From assembly GCA_011525845.1 (NCBI GenBank), contig WYBP01000011.1, forward strand, positions 62,001 to 126,000: a DNA stretch of 64,000 nucleotides, written 5' to 3'. The DNA is from Gemmatimonadaceae bacterium. Lineage in GTDB: Bacteria; Gemmatimonadota; Gemmatimonadetes; Gemmatimonadales; Gemmatimonadaceae. The position numbers and the translations under genes were made by a program. Under the pieces are notes generated by a model that ran no database searches, had not been told where the DNA came from, and was given only the letters and a program-made list of their open reading frames with translations. Positions 560 through 8,057 of the stretch are shown piece by piece; the stretch's first letter is position 1, and each line of letters starts with the position of its first letter.

Positions 560-2814
560 ACCGGGATCGGGCCGACCGGGTGCGCCGCGAGATCGCGCGC
601 GCGGCGCTCGGCGACGGCATCCGGGACGGTCCGTTGGGCGAGTTCACGCTCCTCGCGGGCCAGCGCGAGAGCGCCGCGCGCGTGCGGGCGGCGATCGCCG
701 AGTTCGGAGGAGCGCTGCTCGCGGACGCGCCGGGCACGGGCAAGACCGTCGTCGCGCTGGCGGTCGCGCGATCGTACGAGGGCGTGGTCGTCGTGCTGCC
801 GGCGGCGGTCAGGGACCAGTGGACGCGAGCGCTCGCGCGCGCCGGCCGCTCCGCGCGGATCGTGACACTCGAGGCCCTGAGCCGCGGAGCGTGCGACGCC
901 CGTGCACCGCTGGTGATCGTCGACGAGGCACACCAGGCGCGTACGCCGGGCGCGCGGCGCTACGCTGCCCTGGCGCGCCTCTGCACGGGAGCGCACGTGC
1001 TCCTCCTCTCCGCGACGCCGGTGGTCAACCGCCGCAGCGATCGCGACGCGCTGCTCGCCCTCTTCCTCGGCGCGCGGGCATCGGCGCTCACGCGGCAGGA
1101 GAGCGCGCGGGTGATCGTGCGGGGCGTGCCCGATGCGCGTCTCCGTCCCGCGGTCGAGCGGGGCGAGCCGCTCGGTGGCGCTCCCGACGTCCCGGGGATC
1201 GCCGCGGCGCTGCGGGCGCTGCCGTCGGCCTTTCCCGCGCGCGACGGAGCTCCCGCGCACGCGCTGGTCAGGATCACGCTCGCGCTCGCGTGGTGTTCGA
1301 GCCTCGCTGCACTCGACGGCGCGCTCCGCCGGCGCCTCCAGCGCGGCGAGGCGCTCGGGGAGGCCCTAGGCGAGGGCCGTTGGCCCGACCGCGCCGCCCT
1401 GCGCGCGTGGATCGTCGGCGAGGACGGCACGCAGCTGGCGTTCACCTCGCTCCTCGCCGGGCTGCCGGTGCCGGACGCGGACCTGCACGCGGCGCGGTCG
1501 GTGCTGGAGGCGCACCTGGGCGCCGTGCGCGAGCTGCGCCGACTGATCGGCGCGCACGTCGACGCCGACACCCGACGCCGGGCGGGGGCGATCCGGGATG
1601 TCCTGCGGTCGCGGCCGTCGGAGCGCGCGGTGGTGTTCGCACGGCACGCGGACACGGTCCGTGCGCTCTTCCGTGCCCTCCGCGCGGCGCCGGGTGTCGC
1701 CGCCATCGTGGGCGCGCGGGTGTACGCGGCCGCCGGCCGGTGGACCCGTCGCGAGGTCCTCGCCGCGCTCACGGCCGCTGGGAGCGCCCCCTCCGCGACC
1801 GACCCGCGCGCCGTGCGGCTCCTGCTCACGACGGACCTGCTCTCCGAGGGCGTGGACCTCGCCGCCGTCCGCACGGTGGTGCACGCCGACCTGCCCTGGA
1901 CACCGGCACGCCTCGAGCAGCGACTCGGACGGATCACGCGCGTGAGCAGCGCCTCGGGAACGGTGCGCGAGCTCCGGTTCCGGCTCCCGCGCGGCGCGCG
2001 ACCGTTCGTGCGCCTCGCCGAGCGCCTGCGCGACAAGCGGGAGGTCCGGCGGGTCTCACTCGAGGCTCCGACCGCCCTCGGGGAGCTGCGACGCCTCCTG
2101 GGGGAGTGGTGCGGGCTCCATCCGGAGGGGATCGGCGAGGGCGAAGCGGTCGCCGCGGTGGAGGGCGGTCGCGCCGGATTCCTCGCGTCCGTGCTGGTGG
2201 GAGGGCCTCAGGGCGATCGCGTGCGGCTGCTGGGGGGCGTGCTCGTCGGCACGACCGTTCGCGTGTCGAGCGACCCGCGACGACTGCTGCGCCTCGCGCG
2301 GGACGCCGGGGGGCGAGGCGTCCGTGTCCCGCGACGGGCGGAGGCAGCGGTCCGGGATGCGATCGCGCAGTGGCTCGCATCGCGCGGCGCGCGCGCGCTG
2401 GTGGGCCGGCTGCGGAGTCCCGCGCGGCGGCGGTCGCGCGCCGGAACGCTGGAGGCCGCGCTCGCCGGGCGCTTCGCCCGCATGCTCGCCGCGGCGCCGA
2501 TGGTCGCACGCGCGCCCATCGCGGAGCTCGACCGGGTCCTGCGCCGCACGCTCGAGGAGGGCGTGGGGGTCGCGACCGAGACCGCCCTCTGGTCCGCGCT
2601 CCGGACGTCCGGGAGCGACGGAGAACTGCTCGAGCGCGTGCGTGGCGCGCTGCACCCGCGCGCGTCCGGTCCGCGCGACGACCCCCCACCCGCGCGGATG
2701 GCACCCCGGCACCCGGGCGGGGATGGCCGCATCCTCGCCCTCCTCCTCGTCACCCGCGCGGCGGATCCCCCGAGGCGAGCGCCGACTGGCGCTCCGCCAT
2801 CAGCTTCGCGGTGA
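556..2814 (+). CDS. SF2/SNF2-type helicase, partner of the upstream methyltransferase
   Basis: A superfamily 2 ATPase of 752 residues from GTG 556, chosen because it overlaps the upstream stop (GTGA) and places the Walker motif near the N terminus; the frame opens much further upstream but that part lies inside the methyltransferase gene. Walker A APGTGKT is at about residues 58-64, DEAH at 123-126, motif III SAT at 152-154, and the C-terminal helicase lobe ends in QRLGRITR near residue 455. The last ~290 residues match no domain I recognise, and no nuclease motif is visible. The coding frame runs 65 bases into the convergent gene at 2750, so the extreme C terminus could be read-through or a slipped end. 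It probably remodels or translocates on DNA for the methyltransferase partner. Confidence 0.7.
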   Translation: MNRDRADRVRREIARAALGDGIRDGPLGEFTLLAGQRESAARVRAAIAEFGGALLADAPGTGKTVVALAVARSYEGVVVVLPAAVRDQWTRALARAGRSARIVTLEALSRGACDARAPLVIVDEAHQARTPGARRYAALARLCTGAHVLLLSATPVVNRRSDRDALLALFLGARASALTRQESARVIVRGVPDARLRPAVERGEPLGGAPDVPGIAAALRALPSAFPARDGAPAHALVRITLALAWCSSLAALDGALRRRLQRGEALGEALGEGRWPDRAALRAWIVGEDGTQLAFTSLLAGLPVPDADLHAARSVLEAHLGAVRELRRLIGAHVDADTRRRAGAIRDVLRSRPSERAVVFARHADTVRALFRALRAAPGVAAIVGARVYAAAGRWTRREVLAALTAAGSAPSATDPRAVRLLLTTDLLSEGVDLAAVRTVVHADLPWTPARLEQRLGRITRVSSASGTVRELRFRLPRGARPFVRLAERLRDKREVRRVSLEAPTALGELRRLLGEWCGLHPEGIGEGEAVAAVEGGRAGFLASVLVGGPQGDRVRLLGGVLVGTTVRVSSDPRRLLRLARDAGGRGVRVPRRAEAAVRDAIAQWLASRGARALVGRLRSPARRRSRAGTLEAALAGRFARMLAAAPMVARAPIAELDRVLRRTLEEGVGVATETALWSALRTSGSDGELLERVRGALHPRASGPRDDPPPARMAPRHPGGDGRILALLLVTRAADPPRRAPTGAPPSASR

Positions 2815-3313
2815 ACCGCTGGGCCTCGCTGATCCGCTCGAGTTCGATCGCCATGGTGTCCACGCTCGCCTGGAGCTGCTGCAGCTGCGGCGCCACGTCG
2901 GTCGCGCGCACGAGCCCCGCCGTCCCCCGCTTCTCGATCACCCGGCCGATCGCGCGCGCGATCGGATACCCCACGACCATCGCGACCACGAGGCCGAGGG
3001 ACATCCCCACGAGCGGGATCACCTCGCGCGGGATCTCGTTCTGGCGATAGGGTGGCGGCACCGTGATCACCGGCTCTCCCGGCTGCACGGTGGTCTGGAT
3101 GGTCGTGCGCACGGCGTCACGGATCGCGTCACGCGTCTCCTGCGCGGTGTTCTGGGCCGAGGTGGCCGCATCCTGTGCCGCGGACGCCGCTCCCTGCGCG
3201 CTCGCCGCGCCCGCCTGGGCACCCGTGGGCGCGCCCGGTCTCGCCGGGAGCACCGGGATCGGCGGACCCTGCTGTGCGGCCTGTGCGGCCTGCCCTGGTG
3301 CGGCGATGTTCAT
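2750..3313 (-). CDS. Single-pass membrane protein with Ala/Gln-rich and coiled-coil regions, function unknown
   Basis: A 187-residue protein without a recognisable catalytic domain. Residues 1-75 are low-complexity, rich in Ala, Gln and Pro. A hydrophobic segment follows (IPLVGMSLGLVVAMVVGYPI, near residues 98-117). A C-terminal helical stretch has heptad-like spacing (LQQLQASVDTMAIELERI) and is probably a coiled coil. No cleavable signal peptide is apparent. It is convergent with and overlaps the helicase by 65 bases, and it is divergent from the ECF sigma gene across about 180 bases. Topology and the short cytoplasmic or periplasmic coil are inference. Confidence 0.6.
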   Translation of the reverse strand: MNIAAPGQAAQAAQQGPPIPVLPARPGAPTGAQAGAASAQGAASAAQDAATSAQNTAQETRDAIRDAVRTTIQTTVQPGEPVITVPPPYRQNEIPREVIPLVGMSLGLVVAMVVGYPIARAIGRVIEKRGTAGLVRATDVAPQLQQLQASVDTMAIELERISEAQRFTAKLMAERQSALASGDPPRG

Positions 3314-3495
3314 CTACCGTCTCCGGATCGTTGAGGACTGCCCCCTCCATACGCACCACTCAGGGCAGAGTGTCAAGGGGCATCCGTGGCACGGAAGCCG
3401 GGGCCGTCGCGTACGGTGCGGGAGGACCGGCGACCTCCGTTCAAACCTTTCGTCGGTCCGCCCCATCTTAACTGGCGCATGTTCCACGGTACCGG

Positions 3496-4062
3496 ATGAC
3501 CCCTTCGCTGTCACTGGCCACTCGTGCCACGGCTGACCCGAACGAGGATGCGCGGCTCGCCGCAGCTGGCGACCGTCGCGCCTTCGAACGGCTCTACCGG
3601 AGCCACGTCGACCGGATCTTCTCGGTCTGCGTGCGGATGGTGGGCGACCGCGGCCGGGCCGAGGAGCTCACGCAGGACGTCTTCGTCCGGGCGTGGGAGA
3701 AGCTGGAGACGTTCCGCGGCGACGCGGCGTTCAGTACCTGGCTCCACCGGCTCGCGGTGAACGTGGTGCTGAACGAGCGGCAGTCGGAGAGCCGGCGGCG
3801 GCAGCGCGAGGATGATGGCGCGGAGGACATGGATGCGTTCGCGTCGCACGCGGTGCGGCCGCTCCCCGTCCCCGGGCTCTCGCTGGACCTCGAGCGGGCG
3901 ATCGCCACGCTGCCCCCGGGTGCCAGGAAGGTGTTCGTGCTTCACGATGTCGAGGGATACACGCACGAGGAGATCAGCGGGATGCTCGGCGTCACCGCCG
4001 GCGGATGCAAGGCGCAACTGCACCGGGCTCGCATGCTGTTGAGGAGGGTGTTGACCAGATGA
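3496..4062 (+). CDS. ECF-family RNA polymerase sigma factor
   Basis: 188 residues, the normal size for an ECF sigma factor. Region sigma-2 spans about residues 20-90, with DRRAFERLYRSHVDRIF and ELTQDVFVRAWEKL. Region sigma-4 spans about 130-185, with a helix-turn-helix ending GGCKAQLHRARMLLRRVL. The stop overlaps the start of the next gene (ATGA), which encodes a membrane protein with a zinc-anti-sigma-like HxxxCxxC motif. That arrangement is the classic sigma/anti-sigma pair. Three DUF4097 envelope proteins follow on the same strand, so the regulon probably includes this operon. A weak ECF-like promoter may lie in the leader (AACCTTT near 3444-3450, TCTTA near 3466-3470). Confidence 0.93.
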   Translation: MTPSLSLATRATADPNEDARLAAAGDRRAFERLYRSHVDRIFSVCVRMVGDRGRAEELTQDVFVRAWEKLETFRGDAAFSTWLHRLAVNVVLNERQSESRRRQREDDGAEDMDAFASHAVRPLPVPGLSLDLERAIATLPPGARKVFVLHDVEGYTHEEISGMLGVTAGGCKAQLHRARMLLRRVLTR

Positions 4063-4718
4063 TCGAACACGATGAGACGGACGAACTGCACCGGACGGCG
4101 TGCGCGGAGTGCCGCGGCGTCTGGGCAGACCTGGAACGGATCAGCGCCGAGGCGCGGGCCCTGCCCACGCTCACCCCCTCCCGCGACCTCTGGGCGGGGA
4201 TCGAGTCCCGCCTCGGCCGCGCGGCCGGCGCGTCGAGCGCACGTCCGGAGCGGGCACGCAACCACTGGATGCCGCGCGCCTGGCTCGGGGTTCCCGCGCT
4301 GAGGCTCGCCACCGCCGCTTCCCTGCTGGTGGCCGCGACCGCGTCCCTCACCTGGTGGGCCACGACCCGCGGCGAGGGTGCGCCGAGCCCCGTCGCCGCC
4401 ATCGGCGGCCCGGCGGATCCCGGTCCCGCAGCGACCGCTCCAGCCACGCCCGTCTCCCTCGCGGGCGACTTCGGACAGATGGACCGCGAGATCGCCGAGC
4501 TGCAGCGGATGGTCGCGGAGCGGCGCGCCGAGCTCGACCCCGCCACCCTGGCCGTGCTGGAGCGGAACCTCGCGCTGATCGATCAGGCGATCGCCGAGAG
4601 CCGCACCGCGCTCGCCGGCGACCCCGCCAGCCGGTTCCTTGTGACACAGCTCGCGCGCAGCTACGGCAGCAAGCTCACACTCCTGCGGGGCATCGCCACC
4701 CTCCCCGCGGGCACCTGA
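4059..4718 (+). CDS. Membrane-anchored anti-sigma factor (zinc-finger type)
   Basis: The start at ATG 4059 overlaps the sigma factor stop and is preceded by GAGGAGG at 4041-4047, giving 219 residues. The N terminus carries HRTACAEC at residues 11-18, the HxxxCxxC signature of zinc-binding anti-sigma domains. A hydrophobic segment around residues 83-103 (ATAASLLVAATASLTWW) is the single transmembrane helix. The C-terminal part is a predicted periplasmic helical region (QMDREIAELQRMVAERRAEL) that may sense envelope state. It is expected to sequester the sigma factor encoded immediately upstream. The function is inferred from motif plus position; the periplasmic part matches no sensor domain I know. 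Confidence 0.85.
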   Translation: MIEHDETDELHRTACAECRGVWADLERISAEARALPTLTPSRDLWAGIESRLGRAAGASSARPERARNHWMPRAWLGVPALRLATAASLLVAATASLTWWATTRGEGAPSPVAAIGGPADPGPAATAPATPVSLAGDFGQMDREIAELQRMVAERRAELDPATLAVLERNLALIDQAIAESRTALAGDPASRFLVTQLARSYGSKLTLLRGIATLPAGT

Positions 4719-4733
4719 ACAAAGGACGTACGG

Positions 4734-5651
4734 ATGCGACTTCTCGACTTGATGACACTCGGCGCGGCCGCCGCGCTCGCACTACCACTCACGCCCGCCG
4801 CCGGATCCGCACAGGACGTCCGCCAGCGGATCGACACCACCCTCGCGTTCGATCGCGGCGGGAGCGTGGTGGTCGGCATCGTCTCCGGCGACGTGCGCGT
4901 CGTCACCGGTGCCGCGAACGAGATCCGGATCTCCGCGACCATCGAGCGCGGCCGGTTCGAGACCTCCTTCAGCCGCAGCCGCGTCTCCATCCAGGCCCGC
5001 TCGATCAACAACCGGATGGGGGACACGCGCGTGGAGCTCACCGTGCCCGTGGGGACGAGCGTCCGCGCGAGCTCGGTGTCCGGCGACGTGACGGTCCTCG
5101 GCACGCAGGCGGAGGTGGAGGCCAGCACCACCAGCGGCGACGTCACGGTATCCGATGCCGCGACGGTCGCACGGGTCGGGACGGTCTCCGGCACCGTCGA
5201 GGTCACGCGGGCGAGCGGCCGAGTGGAACTCTCGACCGTGAGCGGGAGCGTGCGCGTGTCGGAGGTCAGCGGCGACCTCGGCGTGGAGGCGGTCAGCGCG
5301 CGCGTCACCATCCAGGGCTCGCGGGTGCGCACGCTGCGCGTGTCGACCGTCTCGGGCGAGGTGACGTTCGACGGGCCCGTGGAGCGGACCGGCGACTACC
5401 GGGTCAGCTCGCACTCGGGGCGCGTGCTGCTGGTGCTCCCCTCCAACGCGGCGGCGACGCTCGACCTCGAGACCTTCAGCGGCCGGATCACGAGCGACTT
5501 CCCCATCACGCTGCAACCCGGCGAGAACGTCGGCCGGCACGGCCGGCGCATGCATCTCACCCTCGGCGGCGGCGGTGCCCGCGTCTCCGCCGAGTCGTTC
5601 AGTGGCAGCATCACCATCCGTCGCGCGGGCTCGCGCGACCAACAGGAGTGA
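4734..5651 (+). CDS. DUF4097 beta-repeat envelope protein (SG-type)
   Basis: 305 residues with an N-terminal signal peptide ending near AGSAQ (residue ~26). The mature part is a run of short beta strands, each closed by Ser-Gly turns (VSGDV, TSGDV, VSGTV, VSGSV, VSGEV, HSGRV, FSGRI, FSGSI) at roughly 17-20 residue spacing. This is typical of DUF4097/DUF4098 proteins that fold as a right-handed parallel beta structure related to bactofilin-like coats. It is the first of three DUF4097 genes behind the sigma/anti-sigma pair and follows the anti-sigma gene by 15 bases. No enzymatic residues are evident; an exported structural or surface role is inferred. Confidence 0.8.
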   Translation: MRLLDLMTLGAAAALALPLTPAAGSAQDVRQRIDTTLAFDRGGSVVVGIVSGDVRVVTGAANEIRISATIERGRFETSFSRSRVSIQARSINNRMGDTRVELTVPVGTSVRASSVSGDVTVLGTQAEVEASTTSGDVTVSDAATVARVGTVSGTVEVTRASGRVELSTVSGSVRVSEVSGDLGVEAVSARVTIQGSRVRTLRVSTVSGEVTFDGPVERTGDYRVSSHSGRVLLVLPSNAAATLDLETFSGRITSDFPITLQPGENVGRHGRRMHLTLGGGGARVSAESFSGSITIRRAGSRDQQE

Positions 5652-5656
5652 CCCAC

Positions 5657-6469
5657 ATGCGGATCGTACACGCCATCACCCGCGGCGCGCTCGTCGGCGC
5701 CTGCCTCGCCGGCACGGCCGCGCTCGCGCTCGCGCAGGGCAGCACCACCTGGAACTGGAGCGGCCAGCTCGGGGAGGGGCGCACCGTCTTCCTCCGGAAC
5801 GTCAACGGCGACGTCCGGATCGAGCAGGGAACCGGCAATACCGTGGAGGTCACCGCAGAGAAGCGCTGGCGCCGGGGGAACCCGGACGATGTGCGGATCG
5901 AGGCGCGCGCGGCCGGCTCCGGGTCGGGCGACGTGATCATCTGCGCCCTCTTCACGGAGCGCGCCACCTGCGACGAGCGCGGGTACCGGAACGACGGGGA
6001 CCGCGACCGGGACCGCTGGAGGAAGGACGACGACGTCTCCGTCAGCTTCGTGGTGAAGGTCCCCCGCAACGCGCGCGTCGACGCCTCGACCGTGAACGGG
6101 GGCCTCGTGGTCGACGGCACCAGCGGCGACATCCTGGCGCGCACCGTGAACGGGGGCATCGAGGCGCGCTCCACCGCGGGTCGCGTGGAGGCGAACACGG
6201 TGAACGGGGACATCCTGGTGCGCACCGCCGTCCCGCGCGCGAACGGCGTGGAGTACGGCACGGTGAACGGCTCGATCACGATCGAGCTCGAGGCGAACAC
6301 CGCCGCCGAGGTCGACCTGTCGACCGTCAACGGGCGCATCTCGTCGGACTTCCCGATGACGCTCGACGGCACGATCAATCCACGGCGGATCCGCGCGACG
6401 ATCGGCGCCGGCGGACCCAGCATCCGGGCCCGGACCGTGAACGGGAGCATCCGCATCCGGAAACTCTGA
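5657..6469 (+). CDS. DUF4097 beta-repeat envelope protein (NG-type, with cysteines)
   Basis: ATG 5657 lies five bases after the previous stop, with AGGAG overlapping that stop, and gives 270 residues. A signal peptide ends near ALALAQG. The repeats carry Asn-Gly turns (NVNGDV, TVNGGL, TVNGGI, TVNGDI, TVNGSI, TVNGRI, TVNGSI) where the upstream paralogue has Ser-Gly. Before the repeats are RWRRGNPDD and two cysteines (VIICALFTERATCDERGY) that are matched in the next gene and could form a disulfide in the periplasm. An Asp/Arg-rich stretch (about residues 115-125) separates this from the repeats. Envelope structural role inferred. Confidence 0.8.
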   Translation: MRIVHAITRGALVGACLAGTAALALAQGSTTWNWSGQLGEGRTVFLRNVNGDVRIEQGTGNTVEVTAEKRWRRGNPDDVRIEARAAGSGSGDVIICALFTERATCDERGYRNDGDRDRDRWRKDDDVSVSFVVKVPRNARVDASTVNGGLVVDGTSGDILARTVNGGIEARSTAGRVEANTVNGDILVRTAVPRANGVEYGTVNGSITIELEANTAAEVDLSTVNGRISSDFPMTLDGTINPRRIRATIGAGGPSIRARTVNGSIRIRKL

Positions 6470-6515
6470 GCGCGCCGGGCGCGTACGCATGGGCGACCCA
6501 GTCCCCGAGTCGCCC

Positions 6516-7343
6516 ATGCGCGGAACGCCCCGCCTGATCTTCGCAGCAGTCGTCGCCACCCTCGCCGTCACCGGTTGTGACGACGAGAACCTCCCGCTCC
6601 AGGAGCGCGCGAACGCGTTCGTCTGGTCGGACCACGTGCCCGCCGGGGCGACCGTCGTGGTGCGGAACATGAACGGCGAGATCGAGGTCTCGGCCTCCTC
6701 GGACGACACGGTGCGGGTGACGGCGAGCCTGGCCTGGCGCCGCGGGAACCCCGACGAGTCGCTGCGCCTCTCCGGCGCGCGGGACGGGACGGACGCGGTC
6801 ATCTGCGCCGTCTGGGGGAAGGGGCGGTGCGACCGGGAGCGCTACAGCTCCGACTTCAGCTTCTCCGGCAGCGGCACGGACGCGCGCGTGCACTTCCGGA
6901 TCGAGGTGCCGGCGGGAGTTCGGCTGGACCTCGCCGGCATGAACACCGGCATCCGTGCCGTGGCGAGCGCCCCGGTCGAGGCACGCACGTTGAACGGCGA
7001 CGTGCTGGTGGCCACCGCCGTCGGTCCGGTGCGCGGCATCTCGAAGAACGGGAGCGTGGACGTCCGCATGACCTCCCTCAGCGGGACCGACTCGGTCATC
7101 GCCGAGACGCTGAACGGCGACGCGTTCGTGTACCTCCCGGAGGGCGTCGACGCGACCCTGGACCTGTCGGTGACGAACGGTTCGGTGGCCAGCGAGTTCG
7201 CGGTGCCGATCTCGGCCTCCACCAGCCGCCGTTCGCTCCGCGCGACCCTCGGCGCCGGGACCCGGGCCGTCCGGATCCGTTCGATCAACGGGAGCGTCGC
7301 GTTGCGCAAGCTGGACGCGGCCGGCAGGTCCTACGAACCCTAG
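6516..7343 (+). CDS. DUF4097 family lipoprotein
   Basis: The start at ATG 6516 is preferred over ATG 6489 because it gives a compact lipoprotein signal peptide with lipobox AVTGC at about residues 17-21; length 275 residues. The body repeats the plan of the upstream protein: RRGNPDES, a cysteine pair (VICAVWGKGRCDRERY) and Asn-Gly turns (NMNGEI, TLNGDV, SKNGSV, TLNGDA, VTNGSV, SINGSV). It therefore looks like a duplicate that acquired a lipid anchor. It is the last gene of the ECF operon, 46 bases after the second DUF4097 gene. The membrane to which it sorts cannot be told from sequence. Confidence 0.78.
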   Translation: MRGTPRLIFAAVVATLAVTGCDDENLPLQERANAFVWSDHVPAGATVVVRNMNGEIEVSASSDDTVRVTASLAWRRGNPDESLRLSGARDGTDAVICAVWGKGRCDRERYSSDFSFSGSGTDARVHFRIEVPAGVRLDLAGMNTGIRAVASAPVEARTLNGDVLVATAVGPVRGISKNGSVDVRMTSLSGTDSVIAETLNGDAFVYLPEGVDATLDLSVTNGSVASEFAVPISASTSRRSLRATLGAGTRAVRIRSINGSVALRKLDAAGRSYEP

Positions 7344-7382: not shown

Positions 7383-8057
7383 ATGAACTACTCGATTCCC
7401 GCCGAAGGCCTCATCGTCCGTACCGGCGCCGAGCGCGCGACGCTCGTGCGCCGCACCTACCTCCTCGTCCTCGCCGGGGTGTTCCTCACCGTGGCGGGCA
7501 CGGCGTTCGCCTTCACGCAGCCGGCGCTCCTGGCGGCCGTGGCGCGGCACCCGTTCATCACCTTCCTCTGCACCTTCGCGCCCCTGCTGCTGGCCACCCG
7601 CGCACGTGCGGCGTTCCCGGCCAACATCATGCTGGTCCTGCTCTTCACGTTCACGGTGGGCGTCTGGATCAGCCCGCTGATGTTGTACTACACGCAGACG
7701 CAGCCGCAGCTGCTGCCGCAGGCGGGGCTCCTCACGCTCACCACGTTCAGCGTCCTGACCGGGTACGCATGGGTCTCGAAGCGCGACTTCAGCGCGTTCG
7801 GGAGCTTCTTCGTGGTGGGGCTCTGGGTGCTGATCGCGACCTCGCTCCTCAACCTCTTCTTCCAGAACGAGACCGCCGCCCTCTGGCTCTCGGCGGGGAC
7901 CCTGCTGGTGTTCAGCGGCCTGTTGATCTACGACACCTGGCGGCTCCGGAACGTCTATGGACCGGACCAGTACGTGCTCGCGGCGGTGCAGATCTACCTG
8001 GACCTCCTGAACATGTTCCTGGCGATCCTGCACCTGCTCGGCGGACGTCGGGACTAG
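7383..8057 (+). CDS. Bax inhibitor-1/YccA family membrane protein
   Basis: 224 residues with about seven hydrophobic helices and a C-terminal DLLNMFLAILHLLGGRRD, the typical ending of bacterial BI-1 (YbhL/YccA/TMBIM) proteins. LLVFSGLLIYDTWRLR carries the conserved Asp of the pore/di-aspartyl region. Members of the family are inner-membrane pH- or calcium-sensitive leak channels, or partners of FtsH; the exact role here is not determinable. It is monocistronic by spacing and is followed by a GC palindrome and the convergent phhB-like gene. Confidence 0.88.
   Translation: MNYSIPAEGLIVRTGAERATLVRRTYLLVLAGVFLTVAGTAFAFTQPALLAAVARHPFITFLCTFAPLLLATRARAAFPANIMLVLLFTFTVGVWISPLMLYYTQTQPQLLPQAGLLTLTTFSVLTGYAWVSKRDFSAFGSFFVVGLWVLIATSLLNLFFQNETAALWLSAGTLLVFSGLLIYDTWRLRNVYGPDQYVLAAVQIYLDLLNMFLAILHLLGGRRD

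Follow-up and report, generated by a model that had tools for sequence, protein, structure and literature searches.

A predicted ECF sigma factor operon for exported Toastrack (DUF4097) proteins in Gemmatimonadota

The genes described here lie on contig C6 of a Gemmatimonadaceae genome of 3.58 Mb. A stretch of 64,000 nucleotides of this contig, referred to as the window, was analysed. It contains an ECF sigma factor gene (SIG), a gene for a membrane anti-sigma factor (ANTI) and three genes for DUF4097 proteins (A, B and C), all on the same strand (Table 1). This composition and order had been predicted from the DNA letters and was confirmed by Pfam, by the HxxxCxxC motif of ANTI and, for C, by a profile of B relatives. 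SIG and ANTI overlap by 4 bp (ATGA). The gaps between ANTI and A and between A and B are 15 and 5 bp, the gap between B and C is larger, and no terminator-like site was seen within the gaps of the operon. For C a start at 6516 is more probable than one at 6489.

Table 1 Features of the operon (positions in the window)
Feature	Position	Strand	Evidence
Predicted autoregulatory ECF promoter	3439-3471	+	conservation upstream of SIG
SIG, ECF sigma factor	3496-4062	+	Pfam regions 2 and 4
ANTI, membrane anti-sigma factor	4059-4718	+	HxxxCxxC, TM segment, alignment of relatives
A, secreted Toastrack/DUF4097 protein, Ser-Gly type	4734-5651	+	PF13349 (1.4e-15), AF2 model, 3LYC
B, secreted Toastrack/DUF4097 protein, Asn-Gly type, Cys pair, WRRGNPD	5657-6469	+	PF13349 (6.7e-10), AF2 model, 4QRK
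Perfect 12-bp inverted repeat	6486-6520	+	arms 6486-6497 and 6509-6520; fold z -2.57
C, B-family lipoprotein, Asn-Gly type	6516 (or 6489)-7343	+	profile of B relatives, lipobox

Two further genes adjoin the operon. A membrane protein of the Bax1-I/YccA family (7383-8057) starts 39 bp 3' of C and is found next to the operon in about 15 loci; it could have its own promoter or be co-transcribed with the operon. A small predicted membrane protein without Pfam family (2750-3313, minus strand) is divergent from SIG and kept in 14 loci.

SIG matched Sigma70_r2 with residues 33-101 (4.8e-18) and Sigma70_r4_2 with residues 130-181 (4.4e-17). No match to region 3 was found, and with regions 2 and 4 only SIG belongs to the ECF (group 4) sigma factors. 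ANTI gave no Pfam match above the cut-off. Its Zn motif HRTACAEC (H11-x3-C15-x2-C18) is conserved in the alignment of relatives, with H11 and C15 invariant and C18 present in at least 90%. A single hydrophobic segment at about residues 80-103 reads as a transmembrane segment. The helical tail predicted to lie outside the cytoplasm is kept in relatives as well (LDxxTxxxLxxNLxxIDxAIxExRxALxxDP). With this motif and a membrane segment beside a sigma factor gene, ANTI is classified as a putative Zn-type class I anti-sigma factor. The same genome has a paralogous SIG2-ANTI2-DUF4097 operon (locus L113, G000:C9:120000-131000, positions 3872-5945), of which ANTI2 has retained the helical tail and lacks HxxxCxxC.

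The three DUF4097 proteins scored 57.8 (A), 39.2 (B) and 21.7 bits (C) with PF13349 (cut-off 22.9), so that C falls just short; with the profile of B relatives C reached 219 bits. The predicted Ser-Gly and Asn-Gly types were found as [S/D]G turns in A and TVNG-type turns in B. Likewise, the motif reported as RRGNPD and the Cys pair are indeed common to B and C, the former as WRRGNPD. The Cys pair is retained in nearly all orthologues of B, which fits an oxidising, extracytoplasmic site. Signal peptides in A and B and a lipobox in C (AVTG-C, followed by DD) predict export of all three proteins. The predicted lipid anchor of one protein is thus supported; it is assigned to C only, whose orthologues carry a lipobox, too.

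AF2 models of mature A and B had pLDDT values of 89.6 and 92.4. By Z score, the top fold match of A was 3LYC (Z 18.2, rmsd 3.0, 217 aligned), and 3JX8, 3LJY and 4OPW matched, too (Z 16-18 including 3LYC). For B it was 4QRK (Z 13.7, rmsd 3.6, 199 aligned). As modelled, A and B have the Toastrack beta-helix fold. The modelling of the single proteins suggested earlier led to solved DUF4097/DUF2807 structures from Bacteroidetes (3LYC, 3LJY, 3JX8, 4OPW, 3PET, 4QRK), which are alike in fold but share only about 10% sequence identity with A and B. According to the original prediction, no function was described for such a set. The domain itself has been described, though: DUF4097 is the Toastrack domain known from LiaG and from PSP contexts (PMC11237479) and linked to envelope-stress systems; this identity of the domain had been missed.

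Upstream of SIG, a -35 element TTCAAACCTT (3440-3449) and a -10 element ATCTTA (3465-3470) were found. The consensus of the loci is TTCAAACCTT-N15/16-[AG]TC[CT]NA, and nearly every locus has this motif with the -35 form TTC[AC]AACCTT. A site scoring at least 12 precedes SIG in 57 of 64 loci, and the strict motif was present in 38 of 63 SIG loci compared to none in shuffles. Pattern searches of the own genome detected the strict form only once, 26 nt upstream of SIG. Congeners with the operon likewise have it before SIG, while none was seen in three sampled small-genome congeners without SIG; in genome G010 it occurs at two sites only, both elsewhere. Such a conserved ECF-type motif before SIG indicates autoregulation, and SIG is predicted to recognise a distinct bipartite promoter and thereby to transcribe its own operon.

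The survey of genomes for the same gene order, proposed earlier, was carried out. SIG-ANTI-A-B was the arrangement in most loci of 61 genomes from the taxonomic order, some of them with additional copies of B or with C. In 30 phylum-wide (class-wide) loci, chosen by A alone, SIG was located upstream and B downstream of A in all cases, with ANTI detected between them in 28. This order is far beyond chance. With a threshold of E<=0.001, matches to A were obtained in 221 of the 249 genomes sampled from the phylum; weak ones among them may be other DUF4097 proteins. The arrangement is kept across most of Gemmatimonadota. Outside the phylum, a few loci have SIG-ANTI-A(-B), among them that of an Acidobacteria MAG (L078), and SIG was found with A in a Thalassolituus MAG (L091) in which the match to ANTI is weak (24 bits). 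C is limited mainly to the genus. The original prediction was to be given up if the DUF4097 genes were not conserved beside the sigma factor or not co-transcribed. For A and B it can be kept: both stand beside SIG in relatives, and the predicted autoregulatory promoter, the short gaps and the lack of terminator-like sites in them point to co-transcription. C is a weaker member of the operon, being mainly confined to the genus and separated by the larger gap, with a second ECF-type promoter before it in congeners.

Losses within the operon affect SIG, ANTI and A jointly. Six congeners with genomes of 1.8-2.3 Mb have B alone, flanked by the same neighbours, and lack ANTI and true A. According to the tree of B, SIG was lost twice, on separate branches of the genus that otherwise carries it. 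True ANTI was absent in 21 of 23 genomes without true A, the two exceptions being fragmented assemblies, and B persists in nine of these 23. Conversely, five members of the order or family have SIG-ANTI-A and no full-length B, and in the loci L147-L150 of order members SIG-ANTI-A is retained without B nearby. The joint loss together with the members lacking B marks SIG, ANTI and A as the constant unit. That these three disappear together and B survives alone suggests that A is part of the sensing unit, whereas B and C are effectors.

Furthermore, DUF4097 genes outside the operon were examined regarding the SIG-type promoter. A position model trained on 32 SIG promoters only was used to score the 380 nt before 38 such genes. 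A score of at least 12 was reached before 24 of 34 truly unlinked genes, including 10/10 in the genus; since these orphan genes are orthologues, the ten sites are not independent. None of four DUF4097 genes that are part of a paralogous SIG2-ANTI2-DUF4097 operon had a site. With SIG promoters masked, random 400-nt windows reach 12 at P=0.0026, and 0/61 control regions upstream of gene families that neighbour the operon (Bax1-I, pterin dehydratase, HHH and UP) did so. The distance from the sites in the genus to plausible start codons is 30-125 nt, and the encoded proteins have signal peptides; the start in the own genome is uncertain. In two genomes in which B is located about 2 kb away from SIG-ANTI-A (L142, L143), the site before B is of the same kind and scores lower (12-13.5). 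On this basis, SIG was assigned four of the five DUF4097 genes of the own genome, and the fifth lies inside the SIG2 operon. The occurrence of the same motif before unlinked DUF4097 genes makes SIG look like a switch reserved for Toastrack proteins, whether encoded in cis or in trans. This reach beyond the operon had not been foreseen. The target genes are related by descent, and sites in trans often end with TGTC where SIG promoters have CATC; hence another ECF sigma factor of near specificity could use them.

A regulon restricted to the operon was dropped as an interpretation after the model with variable last base had found an unlinked DUF4097 gene on contig C3. A site before a pyrR-like gene on the same contig looks like chance (control count 1). 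In one congener, a SIG-type promoter precedes a predicted exported S41 peptidase (L177 from 1501, G005:C1:2609092), a possible extra member of the regulon. SIG-type promoters were also seen before DUF4097 genes of a Lysobacterales MAG (L084, about 34 nt before 5980) and a Sulfomarinibacter MAG (L090, about 34 nt before 5899), hinting that the predicted link between SIG and DUF4097 extends beyond the phylum.

In the gap between B and C of seven congeners a second ECF-type promoter before C, GAAACC-N16-CGTAGATT, was found, which is of the sigma-W type (TGAAAC-N16-CGTA). The lone B is preceded by GAAACC-N16-CGTA in five of the six small-genome congeners, and the same was observed in one genome of another family. 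Whole-genome counts of GAAACC-N15..17-CGTA versus a reversed control were 13:0 (own genome), 27:3, 21:3 and 30:6. An excess over the control was seen in every large congener; examples are G000:C1:4969 and G000:C6:19550. These sites probably represent a second, larger ECF-type regulon. As B and C are found under either promoter type, they seem able to switch between two ECF regulons. In the window no GAAACC-type site is present before C, and the gap has the 12-bp inverted repeat instead, with an ATG in each arm corresponding to the two possible starts of C. It was ruled out as a terminator, because a T-run is missing. Congeners have different strong hairpins in this gap.

We interpret the locus, with a probability of roughly 0.6, as a self-amplifying envelope switch, made up of sigma and anti-sigma factor, that is reserved for exported Toastrack proteins. 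ANTI would tether SIG to the inner membrane, and a signal from the envelope would release SIG. Once free, SIG would transcribe the operon to which it belongs from TTCAAACC-N-ATCTTA, as well as genes of further secreted Toastrack proteins in trans. The exported protein A, whose gene follows directly on that of ANTI, would most likely act as co-sensor or feedback partner of the extracytoplasmic part of ANTI, an RseB-like role taken by another family. B and the lipoprotein C would be effectors, possibly as extracytoplasmic beta-helix scaffolds that bind and protect components of the envelope. The regulatory layout is well supported on the level of sequence. The co-sensor role of A is a proposal drawn from gene position and joint loss, and an envelope function is deduced from the type of regulator, from export and from the parallels to LiaG. 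A wider version is tentative and in our view rather doubtful: a sigma-dedicated extracytoplasmic stress regulon throughout the phylum, in which A gates the anti-sigma factor, and B, C and the unlinked proteins are interchangeable scaffolds that can move between two ECF regulons.

The co-sensor role has to be weighed against the possibility that all Toastrack proteins, including A, are effectors only. ANTI alone would then be the sensor, the joint loss would be that of one transcription unit, and B would have survived by gaining another promoter. A and B are alike in fold and export, and the GAAACC-N16-CGTA sites before B in the small-genome congeners would explain its survival alone. However, A is the only Toastrack gene that always stays beside SIG-ANTI, even without B nearby as in L147-L150, and where ANTI is missing A is missing. 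We regard effectors only as conceivable but not probable. A regulated surface coat or adhesin layer built from the three proteins, as the earlier idea of an envelope coat implied, is very improbable. Beta-helix folds, several secreted paralogues and one lipoprotein would suit such a layer, and PDB matches are titled 'putative adhesin', but these titles are predictions. No sign of surface assembly was found: an outer-membrane export system, polymerisation repeats or a cell-wall anchor were not seen, and the lipid anchor is confined to C. Moreover, C has Asp-Asp after the lipid Cys, which favours inner-membrane retention in E. coli.

It is also unlikely, if somewhat less so than a coat, that the operon serves the phylum as its LiaG/PSP-type membrane-stress system, with PspA/LiaH-like partners and the ECF pair replacing LiaRS or PadR. 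Among named models, LiaG of NCBIfam fits A (E 3e-14) and C best. In B. subtilis, LiaI and LiaH are interaction partners of LiaG (PMC9239133), and one line of PMC11237479 refers to Toastrack in a sigma-linked context. The Lia/PSP contexts (PMC11237479, PMC9239133) also resemble the operon in the Toastrack domain, a stress-type regulator nearby and a small multi-gene layout. On the other hand, the LiaG scores amount to 53 bits at best (A 52.8, C 31.2, B 25.4) compared to the curated cut-off of 285 bits of the equivalog NF049997. Among the nine genes around the operon no PspA/LiaH, PspC or LiaI-LiaF was recognised by Pfam. Lia/PSP systems are controlled by LiaRS or PadR, contain PspA/LiaH and have Toastrack domains fused to PspC or LiaI-LiaF membrane domains. 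Here, the regulator is an ECF sigma factor with a Zn anti-sigma factor, the predicted regulon consists of the Toastrack genes themselves, and A, B and C are free Sec-exported proteins or lipoproteins without TM fusions.

The switch proposed here also resembles in layout the systems of the SigE-RseA-RseB type, in which an ECF sigma factor gene overlaps with that of a membrane anti-sigma factor, an exported protein is encoded next and the promoter is autoregulated. The overlap, the exported product of the next gene and the predicted autoregulated promoter are shared. According to sequence and model, however, A is a Toastrack beta-helix protein and not of the RseB fold, and the predicted SIG regulon is small and comprises Toastrack proteins only.

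Gemmatimonadota are not mentioned in the main text of PMC11237479 and PMC9239133. No description of the operon, promoter or regulon was found in the literature searched, which left most subscription journals outside. New are the predicted autoregulatory ECF-type promoter, the putative Toastrack targets in trans and the finding that SIG, ANTI and A disappear as a set with B surviving. LiaG, the best-known Toastrack protein, has no known function (PMC9239133). Its domain was called extracellular in that study, whereas the Toastrack domain was predicted to be intracellular/cytoplasmic in 2024 (PMC11237479). The predicted exported forms in Gemmatimonadota bear on this disagreement. Toastrack proteins are widespread, and a dedicated regulator with a promoter that is recognisable in the sequence would make it possible to test which signal induces them, which genes belong to the regulon and where the proteins act.
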